This document shows, piece after piece, positions 17,516 through 28,197 of a DNA stretch of 64,000 nt. Made by a program: the position numbers and the translations under genes. Origin of the DNA: Pseudomonas sp. ML2-2023-3 (GTDB taxonomy: Bacteria; Pseudomonadota; Gammaproteobacteria; Pseudomonadales; Pseudomonadaceae); NCBI RefSeq assembly GCF_037055275.1, contig NZ_CP146343.1, forward strand, positions 4,400,001 to 4,464,000, given 5' to 3'. The notes under the pieces were generated by a model, which saw nothing but the letters and a program-made list of their open reading frames with translations, was not told the origin of the DNA and searched no databases. Numbering within the stretch: position 1 is the first letter of the stretch; every line of letters begins with the position of its first letter.

Positions 17516-20500
17516 TCATTCATGAGACTCATCGGCTTGAGCATAACGGTCCAGCTCGTCGGCCAGTTGCTCCATGCTGTAGTGCAGTGCATCGACAGCA
17601 CCAGCAAGACCTTGTGGTTCCGCCATCCTGCAAATCTCTTCCAGTTGCTCGCAACACTCAATCAGCTTCCTGGCTTGAATGAGCTTGCCTCCTCCTTTGA
17701 CACCATGTGCCAGAGCACTCAATCCCTCATAATCATCTTTCACAAACAGCTCGATCAGTGCGCCGAGGTCCTGGCGATTACTGATGGCCAGTTCAGCGAG
17801 CAGTTTGTGGACCACCCCATCATCACCTTGGCTCAACTGTTTAAGATAAGTCAGATCAATCTGCCCGTCAGACTCATCGGCACTCTTGCCTGATGGCCCC
17901 TGCGGTACCCCAGACGCCAGGCAGGCACTCAAGTCCTTCAAACTGATGGGCTTGAACAAGCATTGATCCATTCCAGCTTCCCGGCAACGCACAGCTTCCT
18001 CTGGTTGTGCGTTGGCCGTAAAACCAAAAATCTGGCAGGGCGCTCGCCCCAACGCGACCTCCTCTGACCGCACTGCCCGTGCCAGCTCATAGCCATCCAT
18101 GACCGGCATGGAACAATCAGTGATGACCACGTCAAACTGCCCCATCCGCCATGCCTTCAGACCCAGCGCACCATTTTCGGCGTCGGCCACGCGGTGCCCC
18201 AGGTAGCTGAGTTGTTGGGCCAGCAGCATCCGATTCGCCGGATAATCATCCACCACCAATACATTCAGCGAGCGTGTGCTCCCGACTTCTTGCTGCGCCT
18301 CGTCGACGGCGATTTCTTCAGGTTCAAGCAATGGCACCACCATCGTGATCTCAACCTGAGTTCCGGCCCCCTGCACGCTACTGAGGTGCAACTGCCCGCC
18401 CATCATTTCGCAGAGTTCACGGCTAATCACCAAGCCCAACCCTGAGCCACTACGCGCAGACTGGGTGTTGTTGCTGGCCTGAACAAATGGACTGAACAGT
18501 CGAGACTGGTCTTCGTCAGAAATACCGACGCCCGTATCCTCAACGCGCAAACACACCGACACCTGCTGCCCATCGTGAGCAGGCTCTACGTTCAGTTTCA
18601 GCCGAACTGCGCCCACATTCGTGAACTTGATGGCATTGCTCAACATGTTGGAGACGACTTGTTTAAAACGCATCGGATCGATCATGACATCTGTGTCCGA
18701 CGCAGGGCTCAATTCGCATATCAGGCTCAAGTGCTTCTGGCGTGCAAGCCCATCGAACATCCGTGCCACGGCCTCTACCAGGGACTTGAGATTGGAGCGC
18801 TTGGGGGTCAATGACAAATAACCGGATTCAATACGCGCGATATCCAGAATATCGCCAATCAAGTCGAGTAACTCGCGGGCCGAGACGGATGCCACTTCGA
18901 TTGCAAACCGATCCATGACACCCTGGTCGGCTTTTTTCATGGCCAGTTCAAGCATGCCGATTACCGCATTCATGGGTGTGCGTATTTCATGACTCATGGT
19001 CGCCAGGAATGTTGTCTTCGCCCGATTAGCCTCATCGGCACTTTGTTTGGCGACGTTCAACTCGTTCATTAGCTGCTGGCGCCTGGCAATCACTCGCTGC
19101 AAGTAAGTAATCCAGGCAACCGCCACCAAGAGCAGGGCCGCCGCAATGGCGAACCCTTGAATAATTGCCGCACGATTACGCAGCCAATAGCTTTCAACGA
19201 CGGGTATGTCAGTGCGCCAACGGCCGGTCAGCTCACTCATTTCTCCTGGGGTAATGCTCATGAGCGCCTTGCCCAGAATGGAGTTCAGCTGCGGATCATT
19301 GCTGGCTGTGGCAAAGCCGATCTGCTCGGGTTGTGTGCCTACCGTGCTGGTGATTTGCAGCTGTTTACTAAATCGCCTCGAGACCAGATAGCGTGCACTG
19401 ACCAGCGCACTGACCGCCGCATCAGCTGCGCCTTCTGCCACCATGCTCAGGGCCGCAGGAGGGTTGTCAGCCTCCACCACCTGAATGCCGGGGTAGTTCT
19501 GCTCAATAAACTCGCGCAACACGTTGCCCCGCACCAATGCCACCCGCCGGCCCGACATTTCATCCAGGGTTTCAGGCACATCAGAACCAATACGGGTGGT
19601 CAGCACAAAAGGCGTTGTGAGGTAAGGTCTGGTAAAGCGCAGTTGATTCTCTCGGGCAGTACCGCTCGTGATCCCTCCCAGCATGTGTGCCTTGCCCGAA
19701 CTGACCAGCTTAACCCCCTCAGCCACCGTGCTCTCGCGCACGGCTTCGAACTCAAGTCCTGTGTGTGCACTGATCTTGGTTAACAGATCAGCAATCAAAC
19801 CCTTGAACGTGCCCTGCTCATCAAAGAATGACAACGGTACAAACTGATCATTGATCGCCACCTTTATCCTGGGGTGCATAGCCATCCATCGTTGCTCGCC
19901 AGGGCTGGGGTTAAAGCGCCAGGGGTTGGTGATTTGAGGCCCGTCGGAGCTCCAGCGCCGCAGGATCGTCATGCGCGCACTGGGCGGAATCACCGCCAGC
20001 GCCGCATTAACAACGCGCAGCAATCTGGGGTTATCGCGGCGTACCGCAAAAGAGAACGGGTTGTCTTCCAGCCGGGAAAAGTCAGCCAGTTGCACGTTGT
20101 TCAGGTAGTTTTTGTTGATCAGGTAATTGGCACTGATGTAATCCCCGAGGTAGACGTCGGCCTGGCCAAACGCTACGGCGCCGATCGCCGTCAGGGTTGA
20201 GGGATACAACTGCAAGGTAGCCTTGGGGTAAAAATCCTTGACCTTTTGGGGCGGTAAATAGTGATCAAGCATGGCCACACGCAACCCTGCCAGATCGACA
20301 GGTGGACGCTCACGATTACTGATGCGCGTCACCAGCGCAGGCGAATCGTCTGCGTAGGCAAGGCTTAGCACCAACTGGGGATCTTGTGCCTCGAAACCAT
20401 TGGAGCTGCTTAATAAGTCCAGCTCGCCCTGCTTGAGTGCTTCTATCGCCAACGGCCTCGAGGGATACCGTTTGACCTCAATATCGATGTGCAGCAACTG

Positions 20501-20776
20501 TGACAGCAACTGCGCATAATCGGCGGTCAAGCCTTCGAAGTCCTGGCCATTGACGGCCAGGTCAAACGGACCGTAATCGGGGGCCGAGATGCCAAGACGC
20601 AAGGGGCCCTGTTGTTTGAGCCATTGCACTTCGGAAGGCTCAAGTACCACGCTGTACTCTTCAACACTCGAACGTCCCAACAGGCGCAATGTCTGCACCG
20701 ATGTTTCAGCGGCTGCGACGTACTGGCCAAGGACAAGCAGCAGCCCAGCAAGTCCCAGACATGCAAGAGTTTTCAA
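17516..20776 (-). CDS. BvgS/EvgS-like unorthodox hybrid sensor kinase
   Basis: This 1086-aa inner-membrane phosphorelay sensor has these domains in order: signal peptide (1-23, AAA-ET), two tandem periplasmic SBP_bac_3 Venus-flytrap domains (about 45-275 and 290-530), a membrane helix (about 537-560), HisKA with His596 in MSHEIRTPMN, HATPase (NAIKFTN, EDTGVGIS, GSGLGL), a receiver with its Asp in VVITDCSMP (830-945), and a C-terminal Hpt domain with AHGVKGGG. This is the BvgS layout, so signals flow His-Asp-His-Asp to the regulator encoded just upstream. The ORF begins with TTG at the base after the regulator stop, suggesting coupling. The ligand is unknown. Confidence 0.88.
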   Translation of the reverse strand: MKTLACLGLAGLLLVLGQYVAAAETSVQTLRLLGRSSVEEYSVVLEPSEVQWLKQQGPLRLGISAPDYGPFDLAVNGQDFEGLTADYAQLLSQLLHIDIEVKRYPSRPLAIEALKQGELDLLSSSNGFEAQDPQLVLSLAYADDSPALVTRISNRERPPVDLAGLRVAMLDHYLPPQKVKDFYPKATLQLYPSTLTAIGAVAFGQADVYLGDYISANYLINKNYLNNVQLADFSRLEDNPFSFAVRRDNPRLLRVVNAALAVIPPSARMTILRRWSSDGPQITNPWRFNPSPGEQRWMAMHPRIKVAINDQFVPLSFFDEQGTFKGLIADLLTKISAHTGLEFEAVRESTVAEGVKLVSSGKAHMLGGITSGTARENQLRFTRPYLTTPFVLTTRIGSDVPETLDEMSGRRVALVRGNVLREFIEQNYPGIQVVEADNPPAALSMVAEGAADAAVSALVSARYLVSRRFSKQLQITSTVGTQPEQIGFATASNDPQLNSILGKALMSITPGEMSELTGRWRTDIPVVESYWLRNRAAIIQGFAIAAALLLVAVAWITYLQRVIARRQQLMNELNVAKQSADEANRAKTTFLATMSHEIRTPMNAVIGMLELAMKKADQGVMDRFAIEVASVSARELLDLIGDILDIARIESGYLSLTPKRSNLKSLVEAVARMFDGLARQKHLSLICELSPASDTDVMIDPMRFKQVVSNMLSNAIKFTNVGAVRLKLNVEPAHDGQQVSVCLRVEDTGVGISDEDQSRLFSPFVQASNNTQSARSGSGLGLVISRELCEMMGGQLHLSSVQGAGTQVEITMVVPLLEPEEIAVDEAQQEVGSTRSLNVLVVDDYPANRMLLAQQLSYLGHRVADAENGALGLKAWRMGQFDVVITDCSMPVMDGYELARAVRSEEVALGRAPCQIFGFTANAQPEEAVRCREAGMDQCLFKPISLKDLSACLASGVPQGPSGKSADESDGQIDLTYLKQLSQGDDGVVHKLLAELAISNRQDLGALIELFVKDDYEGLSALAHGVKGGGKLIQARKLIECCEQLEEICRMAEPQGLAGAVDALHYSMEQLADELDRYAQADESHE

Positions 20777-21400
20777 TTAAATCAAATCATTGCGCTTGGC
20801 AAAATCTGCCAAATAAACGACCGACTTTATATTCAACTTCTCAATCAACCTCGCCTTGTAAGTACTGATGGTCTTACTGCTCAATATCATGTCTTCAGCA
20901 ATCTTCTTGTTACTCAAGCCACGGGCGAGCTGTTGCAATATGTACAACTCCCGGGCCGACAAGTGCTGAATCAACTCAACGTCGCTCATGTTTGCATCAC
21001 TGTTGCGTACCGAACTGGCCGCCAGGTACGGAAAAAACGTGTAACCATCCATGATTATTTTCACGGCCCTCAACAACTCGGTGAGATCCTGGCTTTTACT
21101 GATGAACCCTGCCGCCCCGGCTTTCATGCACCGTTGGGAATAAAACAGGGGGGACTGAGACGTCAGCACCAGAATACGGGTGTCCAGCCCTGCGACCCTG
21201 ATTCGATTGATCACCTCCAGGCCATCAAGGCCGGGCATGGTGATATCCAGGACAATCAGGTCAACATGATGCAAACGCGCCAATTGAACAGTGTCAGTGC
21301 CATTGGCCGCCTCAGCCACGACTTCATAACCCTGGCTTTCCAGCAGTACTTTCATGGCTGACCGAATAAGTGAATGATCATCCGCAATCAACACTTTCAT
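20777..21400 (-). CDS. NarL/FixJ-family response regulator (BvgA/EvgA-like)
   Basis: The 207-aa protein has an N-terminal receiver (acidic pair DD at 7-8, phosphoacceptor Asp52 in IVLDITMP) and a C-terminal LuxR-type helix-turn-helix (about 143-200, with GLSNKKIAEDM and SSKTISTYKARL). It is the expected final acceptor of the adjacent BvgS-like kinase, whose gene starts one base after its stop. CGGAGG lies nine bases before the ATG. An IS5-family element begins immediately upstream of that RBS, so the native promoter has been cut off. Confidence 0.88.
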   Translation of the reverse strand: MKVLIADDHSLIRSAMKVLLESQGYEVVAEAANGTDTVQLARLHHVDLIVLDITMPGLDGLEVINRIRVAGLDTRILVLTSQSPLFYSQRCMKAGAAGFISKSQDLTELLRAVKIIMDGYTFFPYLAASSVRNSDANMSDVELIQHLSARELYILQQLARGLSNKKIAEDMILSSKTISTYKARLIEKLNIKSVVYLADFAKRNDLI

Positions 21401-21415
21401 ACATTTAATCCTCCG

Positions 21416-21419
21416 CTAG
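21416..21419. repeat. IS5 target-site duplication, left copy (CTAG)
   Basis: CTAG fits the YTAR target duplicated by IS5-group elements. The right copy is at 23937-23940 and is itself split from its flank by the IS630 element. Confidence 0.6.
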
Positions 21420-21989
21420 GGAAACTCCGAACAAGTCTCCAAGTATGCTGAAATACAGCCTCACCACCTGCCCCGAGTGCGTCATGAGCCAGATGAGCTT
21501 TTCCGATTTCGAATACGCGGGCAAGCGCAAGCAAACACGCCGCGAACGGTTCCTCGCCGAGATGGATCAGGTCGTGCCCTGGAGCGGTTTACTGGCGTTG
21601 ATCGAGCCGTATTATCCGAAGGCTGGTGGTGGCCGAAAACCGTATCCGCTGGAAACCATGCTGCGCATTCACTTGCTGCAAAACTGGTTCTCGCTGAGCG
21701 ATCCTGCCATGGAAGAAGCGCTGTATGAAATCACGCCCATGCGCCAGTTTGCGCACTTGACCCTGAGCGCGCCGATCCCTGAAGACACCACGATCATGAA
21801 CTTCCGACACCTGCTGGAGAATCATAAGTTGGCGCCGGCGATCCTGGCGGTCATCAACGGTTATTTGCAGGAGAAAGGCCTCTCGCTGCGCCAGGGCACC
21901 ATCGTCGATGCGACGATTATCCACGCGCCCAGTTCGACTAAAAACGAGCACGGTAAACGCGATCCAGAGATGCATCAGACGAAGATGTA

Positions 21990-22234
21990 TGGTCAGCCCA
22001 CCTCCCGCAAGCCAGCGTGATGAACGGTAAAACATGCTTGCGCTAATGTATCCGGGCTCATTGTGAGCACGGTCATTAGTGCTCGGCCCTTGATGAGAAG
22101 TCGCTCCCAACAGTCCTTGATAAAAGGATCAGCTACGAAAAAAGCTATCTTCGTCTTCAGGTTTTCAGTCGGGATGTTTGCCGTTTATCGTCATCATCAC
22201 TGTCGTCGCAAAAGCCGGTGGTAATTCGGTTAGA
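21990..22234 (-). ncRNA. Candidate seekRNA/bridge RNA of the IS1111 element
   Basis: IS1111-group elements are known to encode a guide RNA in the long non-coding end downstream of the transposase. This segment holds hairpins (GAGCAC/GTGCTC at 22065-22084; TCCTT/AAGGA near 22115-22131). Its RNA-sense strand contains AGACGAAGAT (22156-22147), identical to the left insertion junction at 21977-21986. RNA limits are not defined; the feature spans the whole non-coding end. Confidence 0.5.
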
Positions 22235-23251
22235 TCAAGCCGTTTGTTCCACGTTGTAGCTACCGCCTCGGGCTAACACAGCCCAGACGATTCTTGCCAT
22301 TTTGTTGGCTAGCGCACAGGCGACCTTGTTCGGCGGCTTGCGAGCCAAAAGCTTTCTTACCCAGGCTCCGAGCGCATCGTTTCGCTTGTCGATTCGGATC
22401 ATCAGTGCGTGAGCGCCTTGCACCAGTAGGCTGCGCAGATACTTGTCGCCGCGTTTGCTGATGCCGAGCAAGCTCGTCTTGCCACCGGTTGAATACTGTC
22501 GAGGCACCAACCCGAGTGAGGCGGCAAAGTCGCGCGAGCTTTTGTAAGTCGAAGCGTCGCCGACATCGGCCAGCAGCGCGCTAGCGGTGAGAGGGCCGAT
22601 GCCGGGGATGCTCAACAAGCGCATGCCGGCTGCGTCCTCGGACAGTTGCTGTTTGATCTCGACATCGATGGTTTTGATATCTCGAGTCAGGCGTTGAATA
22701 TCGAGCAGCATTCGCTCAACCGCATTGCGCAGTCGAATCGGCAGTTCGTGGTTTTCCATTAACGCCGGTACCTGCTCCAGAGCCGCATATCCAACGGGGA
22801 AAATGATGCCGAACTCCAACAGAAAGCCGTGCACCTGGTTGATGATTCCCGTGCGATTATCCACCCAAGACTTGCGCAGCTTGTGCTCGGTCGACAGGAT
22901 CTGCTGTTCAAGGGTCTTTACCGGAACCGAGTGGGTTCTGGGTCGCGACGCTGCTTCGCAGATGGCCTCTGCATCGATAAAGTCATTCTTGTTGCCGGTG
23001 ACGTAGGCCTTTACATGCTGCGCCGCGATTAATTGCACTCGATGGCCTAAGCTTTCGATCTGCCTAGCCAGCCACTGCGAGCCGCCGCAGGACTCCATGG
23101 CAATTTTGCAGGTTGGCAACTGCGTCAGATACGGCAGCAATTGGCTACGATTGAGCTTCTTGCGCAAGAGCTGGTTTCCTCTGGCGTCCTGGCCATGCAA
23201 GTGGAAGGTATTCTTGCCGATATCAATACCCAGAAGCGTCACGGTATTCAT
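22235..23251 (-). CDS. IS110-family (IS1111 group) transposase
   Basis: This 338-aa DEDD recombinase has a RuvC-like N-terminal domain: LLGIDIGKNTFHLHG with the first Asp, KIAMESCGGSQWLA with the Glu, and NKNDFIDAEAICEAA with the last Asp pair. The C-terminal Tnp_20 domain contains LLSIPGIGPLTASALLADVGD and the serine-bearing GGKTSLLGISKRGDKYLR. Length is typical and no defect is seen, so it may be active. It is encoded opposite to the host IS5 transposase. Confidence 0.92.
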   Translation of the reverse strand: MNTVTLLGIDIGKNTFHLHGQDARGNQLLRKKLNRSQLLPYLTQLPTCKIAMESCGGSQWLARQIESLGHRVQLIAAQHVKAYVTGNKNDFIDAEAICEAASRPRTHSVPVKTLEQQILSTEHKLRKSWVDNRTGIINQVHGFLLEFGIIFPVGYAALEQVPALMENHELPIRLRNAVERMLLDIQRLTRDIKTIDVEIKQQLSEDAAGMRLLSIPGIGPLTASALLADVGDASTYKSSRDFAASLGLVPRQYSTGGKTSLLGISKRGDKYLRSLLVQGAHALMIRIDKRNDALGAWVRKLLARKPPNKVACALANKMARIVWAVLARGGSYNVEQTA

Positions 23252-23939
23252 GAGAGATCCTCCTTCGGTAAAGAGAGAAACCCAGTAAGTCTAGACTCAC
23301 TGGGTTTCTCGAGCAGGGCTGACCATCTCATTAAAGGCAATCAATATTTCTTCGGAATGAAGGCCCATATTGGTGCCGACGTTGAGTCGGGGCTGGTTCA
23401 CCACGTTCACGGCACCGCGGCGAATGTAGCCGATGTCACTCAGGTTGCCGAACTGCTGCACGGCGAGGAAAACGCGGTCTACGCTGATGCTGGTTACACC
23501 GGTGTCGAGAAGCGCGAAGAGCATGAAAACCGTGAAGTGGTTTGGCAAATCGCCGCGCGACGCAGCACCTATTCCAAGCTGAGCAAGCGCAGCGTGCTGT
23601 ACAAAGCCAAGCGCAAAATCGAGTACCTCAAGGCCCAGACACGGGCCAAGGTCGAACACCCATTTCGGGTGATCAAACGTCAGTTCGGTTATGTGAAAGT
23701 GCGCTTTCGCGGCCTGATGAAAAACACCGCTCAATTGACCACGCTGTTTGCCTTGTCCAATTTATGGATGGCTCGAAAAAAGCTGATGGGTATGGGCTAA
23801 TTACGCACGTAACACGGAGAAATGGGCTGACAAGCTCGCCAAGGCGGCGCGTACGGGATATTTCGCGATCAATAGCGCCAAATTCAGCGGGATTTTCAAC
23901 TTACTGCGCGGTTGCGGCAAGTTGATCGGAGCTTCCCTA

Positions 23940-25120
23940 GTGTCGTGAGCGGTTAGTTTATTTTCTAACGTACCACGATATACTGTGCACCCCTCGCCCC
24001 GAGATGGTTCCAGGCATGCCTCGTCCAATTGCTCCCTTTGCACTACAGCCCGCCGACGTTCTTACGCTTCAAGGTTGGCTGCGCATGAGTACGCTGGAGC
24101 AGAGCCTTGCTCAGCGGGCGCGGATACTGCTTTTGCTCAATGAAGGGGTGACGCCCATTGCCATCTGTGGGCAATTACTGATCACGACACCGACCGTGTT
24201 CAAGTGGCGAAAGCGTTATCTGGCGTCGGGCATCGACGGCCTGAACGACCTGCCGCGTAGCGGTCAGCCTTTGAAGCTGGGTGCTGAGAAAGTCAAAGAA
24301 ATCCTGACCCTGACAACGCACCGGGTTCCCAAGGAAGCAACGCACTGGAGCGTCCGGTTGATGGCCAAGTACGCTCGCGTTACCACCTGGCAAGTCCGGC
24401 AGATATGGGCTGCGTCGGATCTCAAGCCGCACCGACTGAAGACATTCAAGATCAGCAACGATCCGCACTTCGCTGAGAAGGTCATCGATGTGGTCGGGCT
24501 GTACCTGAGCCCTCCGGACAACGCCATGGTGCTGTCGGTTGACGAGAAAACTCAGATCCAAGCGCTGGATCGTACTCAGCCAATGCTGCAACTTCGGCCT
24601 GGGCAGATCGAGCGGCGAACCCATGATTACAAGCGCCATGGCACGGCGAGCTTGTACGCCGCGTTCGACATCATGACCGGTGAAGTAATGGGCCGGATTA
24701 CCCAGCGGCACCGGGCCAAGGAGTTCCTGGATTTCCTCCGGCAGATTGATAAGAACACGCCTGCCGAGTTGGATCTCCATGTGATCCTGGATAACAGTTC
24801 GACCCACAAAACCCCAGCGATCAAGGCCTGGCTGGAAAAACATCCGCGCTTCAAGCTGCACTTCACGCCGACCAGTGCGTCCTGGCTAAACGCGGTGGAA
24901 GGCTGGTTTTCACAGCTGGAGAGACGCGCACTGTATCGAGGTGTCTTCACCAGTGTTACTGATCTGAAAGTCGCGATCCGCCAGTTCATTACTGCTCATA
25001 ACGAGCATTCAGCCAAGCCGTTCAAGTGGACAAAGACCGCAGCGGCCATCATCAGCTCGGTACATATGGCAAAGCTGAGTGTGATGAAGAATAAGCTAAT
25101 GAACTAACCGCTCGAGACAC
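23940..25120 (+). mobile_element. IS630-family insertion sequence, intact
   Basis: The 23-base terminal inverted repeats begin GTGTC and share GAGCGGTTAGTT, agreeing at 20 of 23 positions. They are flanked by TA on both sides (23938-23939 and 25121-25122), the IS630 target. Length is 1181 bp with one complete transposase. The TA lies inside the CTAG duplication at the right end of the IS5 element, so this insertion came after it. Confidence 0.85.
24004..25107 (+). CDS. IS630-family transposase
   Basis: The 367-aa protein has an N-terminal helix-turn-helix (about 20-90, GVTPIAICGQLLITTPTVFKW) and a DDE catalytic domain. The acidic residues are Asp in VLSVDEKTQIQALDR, Asp in LHVILDNSSTHKTP and Glu in SWLNAVEGWFSQLERRAL. 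It is a single unshifted frame of normal size and looks functional. The stop lies 13 bases inside the right end of the element. Confidence 0.92.
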   Translation: MVPGMPRPIAPFALQPADVLTLQGWLRMSTLEQSLAQRARILLLLNEGVTPIAICGQLLITTPTVFKWRKRYLASGIDGLNDLPRSGQPLKLGAEKVKEILTLTTHRVPKEATHWSVRLMAKYARVTTWQVRQIWAASDLKPHRLKTFKISNDPHFAEKVIDVVGLYLSPPDNAMVLSVDEKTQIQALDRTQPMLQLRPGQIERRTHDYKRHGTASLYAAFDIMTGEVMGRITQRHRAKEFLDFLRQIDKNTPAELDLHVILDNSSTHKTPAIKAWLEKHPRFKLHFTPTSASWLNAVEGWFSQLERRALYRGVFTSVTDLKVAIRQFITAHNEHSAKPFKWTKTAAAIISSVHMAKLSVMKNKLMN

Positions 25121-25221
25121 TAGCTAGCCGAGCATCAGCGTATATCAGGCACAAACATATCGTTTTGAATAGGTACGGCAAGCCAAAGCCTGGAAAAAAC
25201 GACCTGATGAATGACACTGAA

Positions 25222-25242
25222 AGTATAGGACAGTTCTTACGA
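25222..25242 (-). promoter_or_regulatory. Possible displaced native promoter of the two-component operon
   Basis: On the minus strand TATACT (25227-25222) is a good -10 hexamer overlapping the imperfect palindrome TAAGAACTGTCCTA (25239-25226). Removing the IS stack would place it about 115 bases before the response-regulator start. No clear -35 was found. The assignment is inference. Confidence 0.35.
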
Positions 25243-25390
25243 ACATAATCTCCAAAGTCCACAATATCTATGCGCAACATACCGTACCCCGTTCGAAATC
25301 GAGCCGGGGATGATCGCTAATCGGAGACGATCTACGAGAAGGGAAAACACCATCTGATTTGTAGGTTTTTTCCCAAGATATGGATCCAAA

Positions 25391-25410
25391 AGCCGAATAA
25401 CGATTCGGCT
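25391..25410 (-). terminator. Rho-independent terminator of mgtA
   Basis: Perfect 8-bp stem AGCCGAAT/ATTCGGCT with a four-base loop, followed on the minus strand by TTTTGG. It lies about 25 bases past the mgtA stop. The rest of 25128-25434 holds no gene. Confidence 0.8.
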
Positions 25411-25434
25411 CCCTTTAGATGTCAAAGTTAATTC

Positions 25435-28197
25435 TTATTGCCATCCAAACTTGCGAATGTAGAACCCTTTTACCGCCTGGGTCAGCGCCATGTAGGCCAG
25501 CAAAATCATTGGTAAGAACACAAAGTACAACCCCGGCAACGCCTGCAACTTGAAGTAGCCTGCCAAAGGCCCCATTGGCAGGAAAATGCCAACGGCCATG
25601 ATTATCCCCGTCATGACCATCAACGGCATTGCCGCGCGGCTTTGAAGGAACGGGATTTTCGGTGTACGTATCATGTGGACGATCAGGGTTTGGGTCAGCA
25701 AACCGACCACAAACCAGCCTGACTGAAACAGGGTCTGGTGTTCGGGTGTGTTGGCTTTGAAGACGTACCACATCAGCCCAAAAGTCAGGATGTCGAAGAC
25801 CGAGCTGATCGGCCCAAAGAACAACATGAAACGCCCGACATCAGCAGGCTGCCAGCGCTGCGGTTTTTTCAGCATTTCCTCATCGACGTTATCGAACGGG
25901 ATGGCAATTTGTGACACGTCGTAAAGCAGGTTCTGCACCAGCAAGTGCATTGGCAACATTGGCAGAAACGGAATAAACGCACTGGCGACCAACACCGAGA
26001 ACACATTGCCGAAGTTCGAGCTGGCAGTCATTTTGATGTACTTGAGCATGTTGGCAAAGGTGCGGCGCCCTTCCAGCACACCCTCCTCCAGCACCATGAG
26101 GCTTTTTTCCAACAGAATGATGTCAGCTGCCTCCTTGGCGATGTCTACCGCACTGTCCACCGAAATCCCGATATCTGCCGTGCGCAACGCCGGGGCATCG
26201 TTGATCCCGTCGCCCATAAAGCCGACCACATGACCATTGGCCTTGAGCAAACGCACGATACGTTCCTTGTGCGTGGGGGTAAGCCGGGCAAATACGTTGG
26301 TGGTTTCCACTGCCTCCGCCAACTGGGCATCACTCATGCGCTCAATGTCGTTGCCCATCAGCAGGCCCTGTTGCTCCAGGCCGACCTCCCGACAGATTTT
26401 GGCCGTAACCAATTCGTTATCGCCGGTCAGCACTTTTACGGCAACGCCATGCTCGGCCAACGCCTTGAGCGCCGGGGCGGTGCTCTCCTTGGGAGGGTCC
26501 AGGAACGCCACATAGCCAATCAGCGTCAGTTCCTGTTCATCCGCCAGGCTGTAAGTGTCCCGCCCCCCGGTCATTGGCCGCGCAGCCACGGCCACAACCC
26601 GCAAGCCTTCCTCGTTGAATTCGGCGGTCACCTGGCGAATACGCGCCAGCAACGGGTCACTCAGGGCTTCTTCCTGATCGCCATGGCGCACGGTGTTACA
26701 CACGGACAGCACTTCTTCGACAGCCCCCTTGCAGATCAGCAGATGAGGCTGATCCTGCTCGGCCACCACCACCGACATGCGTCGGCGGGTAAAGTCGAAC
26801 GGGATTTCATCCACCTTGCTGAAAGCCGTGCCCACGTTCAGCTCACGGTGAACCTCAACATGCTCCAGCACCGCCACGTCCAGCAGGTTCTTCAAGCCGG
26901 TCTGGTAGTAGCTATTGAGATAGGCCATTTCCAGCACATCGTCAGACTCTTGCCCCCACACATCAACGTGTCGGGCCAGAAAAATCTTGTCCTGGGTCAG
27001 GGTGCCGGTCTTGTCGGTGCACAGCACATCCATCGCGCCAAAGTTCTGAATCGCATCCAGGCGTTTGACGATGACTTTTTTACGGGACAAAAACACCGCA
27101 CCCTTGGCCAGGGTCGAGGTCACAATCATCGGCAACATTTCCGGGGTCAGCCCCACGGCCACCGACAACGCGAACAGCAAGGCTTCGGTCCAGTCCCCCT
27201 TGGTAAAACCATTGATAAAGAGCACCAGCGGCGCCATCACAAACATGAAGCGGATGAGTAGCCAACTGATGTTGTTGACCCCGGTCTGAAACGAAGTCGG
27301 GCCACGATCGGTCGCACCCACCCGTTGGGCCAGCGCGCCAAAATAGGTGTTATTACCCGTGGTCAGTACCACCGCCGTCGCCGCACCGGAGACCACGTTG
27401 GTGCCCATGAACAAGATATTTTCCAGCTCCAGCGGGTTGCTGGTCTGGTTGTCAAACTGACGCGAAAACTTCTCCACCGGCATGGACTCACCGGTCATCG
27501 CCGCCTGGCTGACAAACAAGTCCTTGGCACTTAGCACCCGGCAATCGGCCGGAATCATGTCGCCTGCCGACAACACAATCAGATCACCCGGCACCAGTTG
27601 CTTGATCGGCAATTCGATACGCTGCGCGTCCCTGATTTGCCGAGCGGCTCCCGAAAACCGGCCAAACATCGGCGAAGTGTCAGCACCAAAGTCTCGGCGC
27701 ATCACCGTGGCGGTGTTGCTCACCATTTCCTTGAGCGCGTCAGCCGCCTTGTTGGACTTTGCCTCCTGCCAAAAACGCAGCACGGTCGACAGCACCACCA
27801 TGGTGCTGATCACCACGGCCGCCTGTACGTCATCGGTGGCCAGCGACACACCTGCGAGCAAGGTCAGCAGCAGGTTGAACGGGTTTTTGTAGCAGTGCCA
27901 CAAATGCACCCAGCGACTGAGCGGCTGTTCGTGCTCAACCTCATTGAGCCCGTGTTGCTGACGCAACGCATCGACCTCGGCATCACTCAACCCGTCGGTG
28001 TGGGTGCCCAGGTTGTCGATCAATAACGCGCTGTCGCTGTTGGCAGCGACCACCAGGGTTTGCGCCAGAGTCGGTGGTACTTCCCGACTGACCGTGGTGT
28101 TGGTCAGGCTGTCGAGCAAGGCCAGGCGCCGAAAGTGCCGGCCGAAATGGCGAGTACGCAAAAAGCCTGCGAAGAATTCTTTCAGGGCGAGTTTCAT
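25435..28197 (-). CDS. mgtA: Magnesium-translocating P-type ATPase
   Basis: This inner-membrane P3B ATPase imports Mg2+ under limitation. From the chosen start it is 920 aa. Features in order are the actuator TGESMPVEK, the phosphorylated aspartate in DKTGTLTQD, the hinge GDGINDAPALR and about ten membrane helices. The N-terminus MKLALKEFFAGFLRTRHF matches Pseudomonas MgtA, and AGGAG lies seven bases before this ATG. The same frame is open upstream to 28254 (an extension starting MSEVPQWHVRSRRRSST), which I consider leader or unused. A 10-bp hairpin lies just upstream, and a terminator follows. Confidence 0.9.
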   Translation of the reverse strand: MKLALKEFFAGFLRTRHFGRHFRRLALLDSLTNTTVSREVPPTLAQTLVVAANSDSALLIDNLGTHTDGLSDAEVDALRQQHGLNEVEHEQPLSRWVHLWHCYKNPFNLLLTLLAGVSLATDDVQAAVVISTMVVLSTVLRFWQEAKSNKAADALKEMVSNTATVMRRDFGADTSPMFGRFSGAARQIRDAQRIELPIKQLVPGDLIVLSAGDMIPADCRVLSAKDLFVSQAAMTGESMPVEKFSRQFDNQTSNPLELENILFMGTNVVSGAATAVVLTTGNNTYFGALAQRVGATDRGPTSFQTGVNNISWLLIRFMFVMAPLVLFINGFTKGDWTEALLFALSVAVGLTPEMLPMIVTSTLAKGAVFLSRKKVIVKRLDAIQNFGAMDVLCTDKTGTLTQDKIFLARHVDVWGQESDDVLEMAYLNSYYQTGLKNLLDVAVLEHVEVHRELNVGTAFSKVDEIPFDFTRRRMSVVVAEQDQPHLLICKGAVEEVLSVCNTVRHGDQEEALSDPLLARIRQVTAEFNEEGLRVVAVAARPMTGGRDTYSLADEQELTLIGYVAFLDPPKESTAPALKALAEHGVAVKVLTGDNELVTAKICREVGLEQQGLLMGNDIERMSDAQLAEAVETTNVFARLTPTHKERIVRLLKANGHVVGFMGDGINDAPALRTADIGISVDSAVDIAKEAADIILLEKSLMVLEEGVLEGRRTFANMLKYIKMTASSNFGNVFSVLVASAFIPFLPMLPMHLLVQNLLYDVSQIAIPFDNVDEEMLKKPQRWQPADVGRFMLFFGPISSVFDILTFGLMWYVFKANTPEHQTLFQSGWFVVGLLTQTLIVHMIRTPKIPFLQSRAAMPLMVMTGIIMAVGIFLPMGPLAGYFKLQALPGLYFVFLPMILLAYMALTQAVKGFYIRKFGWQ

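Follow-up and report, generated by a model that had tools for sequence, protein, structure and literature searches.

An IS1111-type insertion sequence of Pseudomonas with a candidate guide RNA that matches its insertion site in an IS5-type transposase gene

Introduction

The closest described counterparts of the element reported here are the IS1111 seekRNA systems ISEc11, ISPa11, ISKpn4 and ISPst6 (PMC11187229). Our element shares with them (i) a downstream non-coding end, (ii) sub-terminal inverted repeats with 7 bp and 3 bp extensions and insertion without duplication, (iii) an RNA in which the top-strand match lies 5' of the bottom-strand match, and (iv), at the level of its clade, natural retargeting among relatives. 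It departs from them, as far as the accessible text of that paper describes them, in its target (an IS5-type transposase gene) and in a donor-end module that covaries within the clade.

The bridge RNA of IS621 (IS110 group; PMC11208160) is likewise bispecific, with target and donor guides that share a core base. Unlike the RNA described here, IS110-type RNAs lie upstream of the transposase gene, and the IS110-type element ISEc21 has its two matches in the opposite order to ours (PMC11187229). ISEc21 targets the second-D codons of IS3-family transposases, and thus resembles our element in being guided by RNA to a conserved motif within the coding sequence of a different insertion sequence, while differing from it in family, target family and guide order (PMC11187229). 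Finally, ISPpu9 of Pseudomonas putida encodes Ssr9, a ~180-nt RNA seen by Northern blot that, like ours, lies downstream of the transposase gene, and it inserts into REP sequences; it differs in being classed as an IS110/IS492 element, and Ssr9 is treated as a regulator in the available sections of that report (PMC8450116).

Here we analyze an element in a 64,000-nucleotide stretch of the Pseudomonas sp. ML2-2023-3 chromosome (NZ_CP146343.1, positions 4,400,001–4,464,000; hereafter the window, in whose coordinates all positions are given). Taken as a whole, the locus is very probably an IS1111-type element with a downstream seekRNA/bridge RNA that would guide insertion into IS5-type genes.

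Results and Discussion

An IS1111-type element interrupts an IS5-type transposase gene

Application of the 7-bp/3-bp terminal-extension rule for IS1111 elements (PMC11187229) places the element at 21986–23333. Its parts, and those of the interrupted gene, are:

21986–23333, minus strand: IS1111-type insertion sequence, 1348 bp, ends TAATGAG...ACA in transposase sense (supported by the 7/3 extension rule, by uninterrupted sites elsewhere in the genome and by a second copy of 100% identity)
22235–23251, minus strand: transposase, 338 aa, DEDD_Tnp_IS110 and Transposase_20 (Pfam; NCBIfam NF033542, 'IS110 family RNA-guided transposase')
21986–22234, minus strand: 249-nt long non-coding end, downstream of the transposase gene
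23327–23333, minus strand: left 7-bp extension TAATGAG, its first T being the base common to element and target
23316–23326, minus strand: left sub-terminal inverted repeat ATGGTCAGCCC
21989–21999, minus strand: right sub-terminal inverted repeat GGGCTGACCAT
21986–21988, minus strand: right 3-bp extension ACA
21445–21985, plus strand: interrupted IS5-type transposase gene, 5' part (NF033581; PF05598 on 21445–22020)
23334–23800, plus strand: interrupted IS5-type transposase gene, 3' part (NF033581; PF01609 on 23141–23800)

The transposase matches PF01548 (E 5.8e-16), PF02371 (E 9.9e-25) and NF033542 (339 bits), and inspection of the translation by eye finds the IS1111 motif GL-P----S/TG in the C-terminal domain, as GLVPRQYSTG. 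Further structural hallmarks of the IS1111 family are present: ATGGTCAGCCC and GGGCTGACCAT form perfect 11-bp sub-terminal inverted repeats (~11–13 bp expected), the extensions measure 7 bp on the left and 3 bp on the right around a target without duplication, and the longer non-coding stretch lies downstream of the transposase gene (249 nt, against 82 nt upstream). The downstream position of the RNA, and the order of its guides, do not fit the IS110 group (IS621 type). When the element ends are joined on paper, they read TTGCGG-17-CATAAT, matching 8 of 12 promoter consensus bases. Separately, an 18-bp near-perfect palindrome (94%) occupies 23275–23310, inside the left end and ahead of the transposase ribosome-binding site; it is possibly a guard against read-through.

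In transposase sense, the junctions read GATTGCCTT/TAATGAG...ACA/TCTTCGTCTGATG, and the empty site is therefore GCCTT^TCTTCGTCT (^ marks the insertion point), without duplication; the site codes for H-Q-T-K-K-G-N-Q. The same genome holds eight uninterrupted CCTTTCTTCGTCT sites in addition to two occupied ones, while a backward control pattern is found nowhere. All eight lie in stretches resembling the interrupted IS5-type gene (four at ≥99% and four at ~72–75% DNA identity).

Two further copies of the element were compared. The second chromosomal copy is 100% identical to that in the window, with left flank ATTACCTT as opposed to ATTGCCTT. Since the two copies share IS5-type surroundings, extending ~540 and ~600 bp on the two sides with 5 mismatches altogether, they may descend from a single insertion event duplicated together with its host; an earlier reading of them as separate insertions was withdrawn on the same grounds. 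The other copy, 98.4% identical, lies on a Pseudomonas mandelii plasmid (L117; NZ_CP005961.1) at the site TTTCCTT^TCTTCGTCTG. Its left flank is IS5-like (~70% DNA identity), and its right flank departs from IS5-like sequence directly after TCTTCGTCTG, entering another hairpin-forming stretch; the site appears to be either rearranged or a chance fit. Close copies at unrelated targets with an unchanged guide, which would have spoken against guided insertion, were not seen among these copies, a weak test given how few independent insertions they represent: the chromosomal pair is perhaps one event, and the plasmid right flank is non-IS5 beyond the guided bases.

The non-coding end has a conserved RNA fold among relatives

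Relatives were collected by a DNA search of the genus, in which 61 of 398 genomes had matches, most of them distant or incomplete, and by a protein search of genome contigs, from which the best 80 of 429 loci were kept. The non-coding ends of 45 of 67 relatives, with near-duplicates and more distant ones omitted, were aligned to build covariance model R1, and this model matched 71 of the 398 genomes. From these, 100 of the 134 matches listed were taken further and re-aligned with the earlier loci. The resulting 184 model matches include some loci twice; 51 have no usable ends or flanks, and the 133 that do reduce to 119 unique insertions. The guide test used 116 of these (L078, L073 and L250 dropped, L257 kept despite doubtful ends), and the donor and terminator counts 117 (L250 and L257 dropped). 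In end calling, a typical left extension and a typical right triplet each earned a candidate a small bonus, and the guides were never used; this motif-anchored calling replaced end finding by best inverted repeat, which mis-called L008, L013, L046 and others.

The model and the segments discussed below map onto the window as follows:

22041–22182, minus strand: guide RNA region, covariance model R1 (135 positions, 24 pairs), 115.6 bits (L001:1555-1696), the window sequence being part of the training alignment
22148–22156, minus strand: T guide AGACGAAGA, complementary to the right flank TCTTCGTCT (22147–22156 in the sequence-only reading, as a 10-mer)
22131–22146, minus strand: small hairpin AGCU...AGCU between the two target guides (consensus helix 4, 99.4% of cells paired)
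22123–22128, minus strand: B guide UCCUUU, in the sense of the target top strand (CCTT^T)
22091–22097, minus strand: putative donor guide, 5' half CUCAUCA, near-complement of the left end TAATGAG (the weaker, left-end covariation)
22046–22051, minus strand: putative donor guide, 3' half AUACAU, equal to the right end AT-ACA plus the core T (triplet covariation)

The fold is conserved among relatives. In the consensus structure of the 45 ends, the 24 pairs are paired in 94.0% of cells (76.0% when shuffled), 17 of the 24 show double changes, and the covariation score is 0.514, as compared with 0.198 for shuffles (none of 500 as high) and only 0.047–0.095 for slid structures. Folded as a single sequence, the window RNA is no more stable than its shuffles (z -1.06, with 27 of 200 shuffles folding equally well), and the consensus target loop is absent from its minimum-energy structure. 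A scan of 19500–25500 against Rfam gave no match at E up to 1.

A further RNA with this fold, the third in the genome of the window, lies at G000:C1:1408072-1408205 (L003, L239), and its transposase is ~53% identical. Elsewhere, matches around which no element ends were found (L183, L187, L196–L199, L202–L205, L208, L253, L254 and others) may include orphan guide RNAs without a transposase, comparable to the ssr9 copies described in PMC8450116, or fragments.

Two RNA segments covary with the insertion site

From 5' to 3', the target module consists of a loop-closing stem, the T guide, the small hairpin and the B guide. The T and B matches overlap in the target by the base immediately right of the junction, as is typical of IS1111 seekRNAs. 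At their own sites, the guides of the window RNA fit at 9/9 (T) and 5/7 (B) positions, and those of the plasmid copy at 9 and 6; the first U of the B guide fits the target of the plasmid copy and not that of the window.

Both guides follow their targets across the clade. Over 77 guide classes (116 insertions), 7.16 of the 9 T-guide positions fit the element's own right flank, while permuted guide–site pairs give 4.01 (sd 0.16; maximum of 3000 permutations, 4.62), and the B guide fits its junction at 6.23 of 7 positions, against 2.67 (sd 0.14; maximum 3.21). Since roughly half of the classes have the T guide shifted by one base, two registers were scored and the higher value taken, in own as in permuted pairs; this superseded a one-register score (own 5.12, permuted 3.28). 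The pattern holds between elements with close scaffolds and different guides, in 107 overlapping and hence not independent pairs: among 246 differing T positions, 127 fit both own sites, 3 fit swapped and 64 have the same base in the two sites, and among 238 differing B positions the counts are 186, 0 and 21.

An individual case is provided by L096, whose transposase is 93% identical over the part present. Its guide is AGACCAAGA and its right flank TCTTGGTCT, the flank change being a synonymous Thr codon in its IS5-type host; this is a natural compensatory guide/target pair. Together, the clade-wide covariation and this pair support the identification of the AGACGAAGA segment as a target guide. 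The sequence-only reading had proposed as much, calling it the left guide and suggesting that a weaker CCUUU pairs with the other half of the target; 'left' holds in window coordinates, and in transposase sense the segment is the right-flank, top-strand guide. The CCUUU proposal is borne out by the B guide.

Five of the 77 classes fit their sites poorly (T plus B at most 9 of 16: L210, L257, L014, L008 and L107). Among these is the nearest relative, L008 (transposase 94% identical), in which the T guide fits its site at 2/9 positions and the B guide at 7/7, and which has an expanded GAAAACCT repeat ahead of the guide. In L008 and L037, the host is an IS5-type gene with a site one codon shorter, which the T guide no longer fits.

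A second pair of segments covaries with the element ends

Downstream of the target guides, the segments CUCAUCA and AUACAU flank a second conserved stem. The RNA triplet in the latter is identical to that of the right end in all 117 insertions, with four triplets represented (AGA 69, ACA 34, ATA 13, GTA 1), and both bases preceding it also follow the repeat end without exception (AT 111, AC 6). When L250 and L257 are included and the rows read by eye, agreement is 118/119, the miss being L250, whose ends are apparently mis-called. On a tree of 86 transposases, the end triplet and the RNA triplet each require at least six changes; independent pairs number 3+2+2 and all change in the same direction, which is not enough for a sign test. 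The 5' segment (CUCAUC and variants) matches the complement of the left end at 4.52 of 6 positions, as opposed to 3.90 in permuted pairs (1 of 5000 as high), counted by classes and uncorrected for kinship. Furthermore, in 110 of 117 insertions the left end and the right flank begin with the same base (mostly T/T, the informative cases being C/C in 7 and A/A in 2, with 7 exceptions), and this suggests a one-base core common to target and left end.

The resemblance of AUACAU to an element end had been pointed out before, and the triplet copy bears it out. AAUGAG, noted at the same time as resembling the other end, was rejected as a donor segment: it is present in only 5 of 119 relatives, the plasmid copy having CCATGAG. 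CUCAUCA is the likely left-end guide in its place. A second guide pair matching the element's own ends, as expected of a bispecific bridge RNA, is found here by covariation alone.

A seekRNA that reads only the target, in which the conserved AUACAU and CUCAUCA help the transposase to bind or the RNA to be processed or folded, without pairing to the element ends, is in our judgment unlikely, though several points speak for it. An 82-nt ISEc11 seekRNA is sufficient for transposition, and no donor loop or other donor part is described in the accessible text of PMC11187229; the donor module may therefore not be essential. Among the chains matched in the PDB there are only those of IS621 and ISCro4, and no IS1111-type complex to settle the matter. 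Against it stand the agreement of the triplets, with its repeated changes on the tree, that of the two preceding bases, and the left-end covariation; moreover, Durrant et al., inspecting six diverse elements (three per group) by hand for donor pairing, predicted donor-binding nucleotides in IS1111 RNAs (PMC11208160). The covariation thus favours a donor guide, without proving the need for one.

Other origins of the repeated 10-mer

The observation from which this work started is that AGACGAAGAT occurs at the left insertion junction (21977–21986, plus strand) and again in the non-coding end (22147–22156, minus strand). Both places are confirmed, and there is no third occurrence in the window; in 100 shuffles of the window the mean is 0.08, and none contains two. 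As also predicted, nine of the ten bases (AGACGAAGA) derive from the target and are found in the genome's uninterrupted CCTTTCTTCGTCT copies, while the tenth (T) belongs to the element's own end (RE ...ACA).

The 10-mer pair makes a perfect inverted repeat across the element end, as would a captured IS5 fragment: a recombination scar without any guide role. This account is refuted by the relatives, in which the segment holds a fixed place in the conserved RNA scaffold and carries each element's own target; we regard it as highly improbable.

A second possibility is coincidence: 250 nt of non-coding DNA might contain the 10-mer again by accident. The original reading considered such a match unlikely by chance, and that stands in weakened form: of 20000 dinucleotide-shuffled versions of the 249-nt end, 45 contain the anchored 9-mer, and when every 9-mer of the 24-bp site is allowed, whichever its sense, 175 of 5000 contain a match. 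Taken alone, then, the match is only moderately improbable as a chance event. The guide role is accepted because the relatives decide the question; the proof is comparative, and the covariation of guide and target over 77 classes, and in L096, refutes chance, which we now consider exceedingly improbable.

That the RNA silences IS5 as an antisense transcript is hardly credible: it does pair with one strand of the IS5-type gene, but the T guide is in the mRNA sense of that gene (transposase on the plus strand, AGACGAAGA at 21977–21985), only the short B guide is antisense, and the guides flank the insertion point exactly.

Sister elements lie at REP-like repeats and intrinsic terminators

Targets in the clade extend beyond IS5-type genes. 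Some sites, including those of the window element's nearest cousins, resemble a repeat of the GCTTACTTTT/GGTTACTTTT type, and some (TGTGGGAGCG...) resemble Pseudomonas REP sequences. In addition, in 26 of 117 insertions, from 16 guide classes, the insertion point coincides with the border between hairpin and T-tract of a strictly defined intrinsic terminator; in the flanks, such a border is found at 9 of 4540 random positions and at 64 of 889 positions ahead of TTTT. Forty insertions have a right flank starting with TTTT, and 23 of these conform to the strict pattern. A laxer pattern proved too loose (49/117; controls, 7/681 random and 76/258 ahead of TTTT), and both patterns were devised after terminators had been noticed among the flanks. 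One element occupies six different terminators within one genome (L172–L177); in these and the 20 other terminator insertions, the guides match the hairpin arm and the T-tract. Elements sitting between a terminator hairpin and its T-tract may also gain read-through transcription. A literature search, conducted without bioRxiv and most subscription journals, did not find terminators described as IS110/IS1111 targets. The two less expected results of this analysis are these sister guides aimed at intrinsic terminators and the perfect donor-end covariation in IS1111-type RNAs.

A model for guided insertion

The proposed mechanism is that published for seekRNAs and bridge RNAs; what is new is the element itself, targeting IS5-type transposase genes. 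A structured guide RNA (seekRNA/bridge RNA) would be transcribed from the region downstream of the transposase gene and form an RNP with the transposase, and this complex would locate the codons Q-T-K-K-G in IS5-type transposase genes. The element, presumably as a circle intermediate, would then be inserted in a single orientation and without duplication. The second module (CUCAUCA...AUACAU) probably reads the element's own joined ends by pairing with them, in the same order as the target guides: the complement of the right half (LE) first, the copy of the left half (RE) second. The ends, the target, the guide–target and RE-triplet covariation and the conservation of the fold can be read from the genomes themselves.

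On a broader reading, which we think probable, the IS1111-type RNAs of this clade would be full bispecific bridge RNAs—with two target guides, a same-order second pair for both ends, and a crossover base common to target, left end and guides—and swaps of short guides would repeatedly have redirected the clade among rival transposons, REP-like repeats and intrinsic terminators.

Several consequences follow. Firstly, the insertion address and the guide of a natural IS1111 element are readable from genome sequence alone, and a covariance model recovers about a hundred related guides together with their targets. Secondly, the presence of a donor guide in IS1111 RNAs, an unsettled point, becomes directly testable. 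Thirdly, insertion into other transposons and at terminators hints at how a guide can limit harm to the host.

Two features of the surrounding window are recorded here. To the right of the IS5-type gene, 24004–25107 holds a 367-aa open reading frame whose translation resembles, by eye, an IS630-type transposase. On the other side, the nested insertion sequences adjoin a stretch (17516–21400) encoding a response regulator and a sensor kinase, the latter with two periplasmic parts that are solute-binding-like; by eye, the pair resembles BvgS/EvgA.
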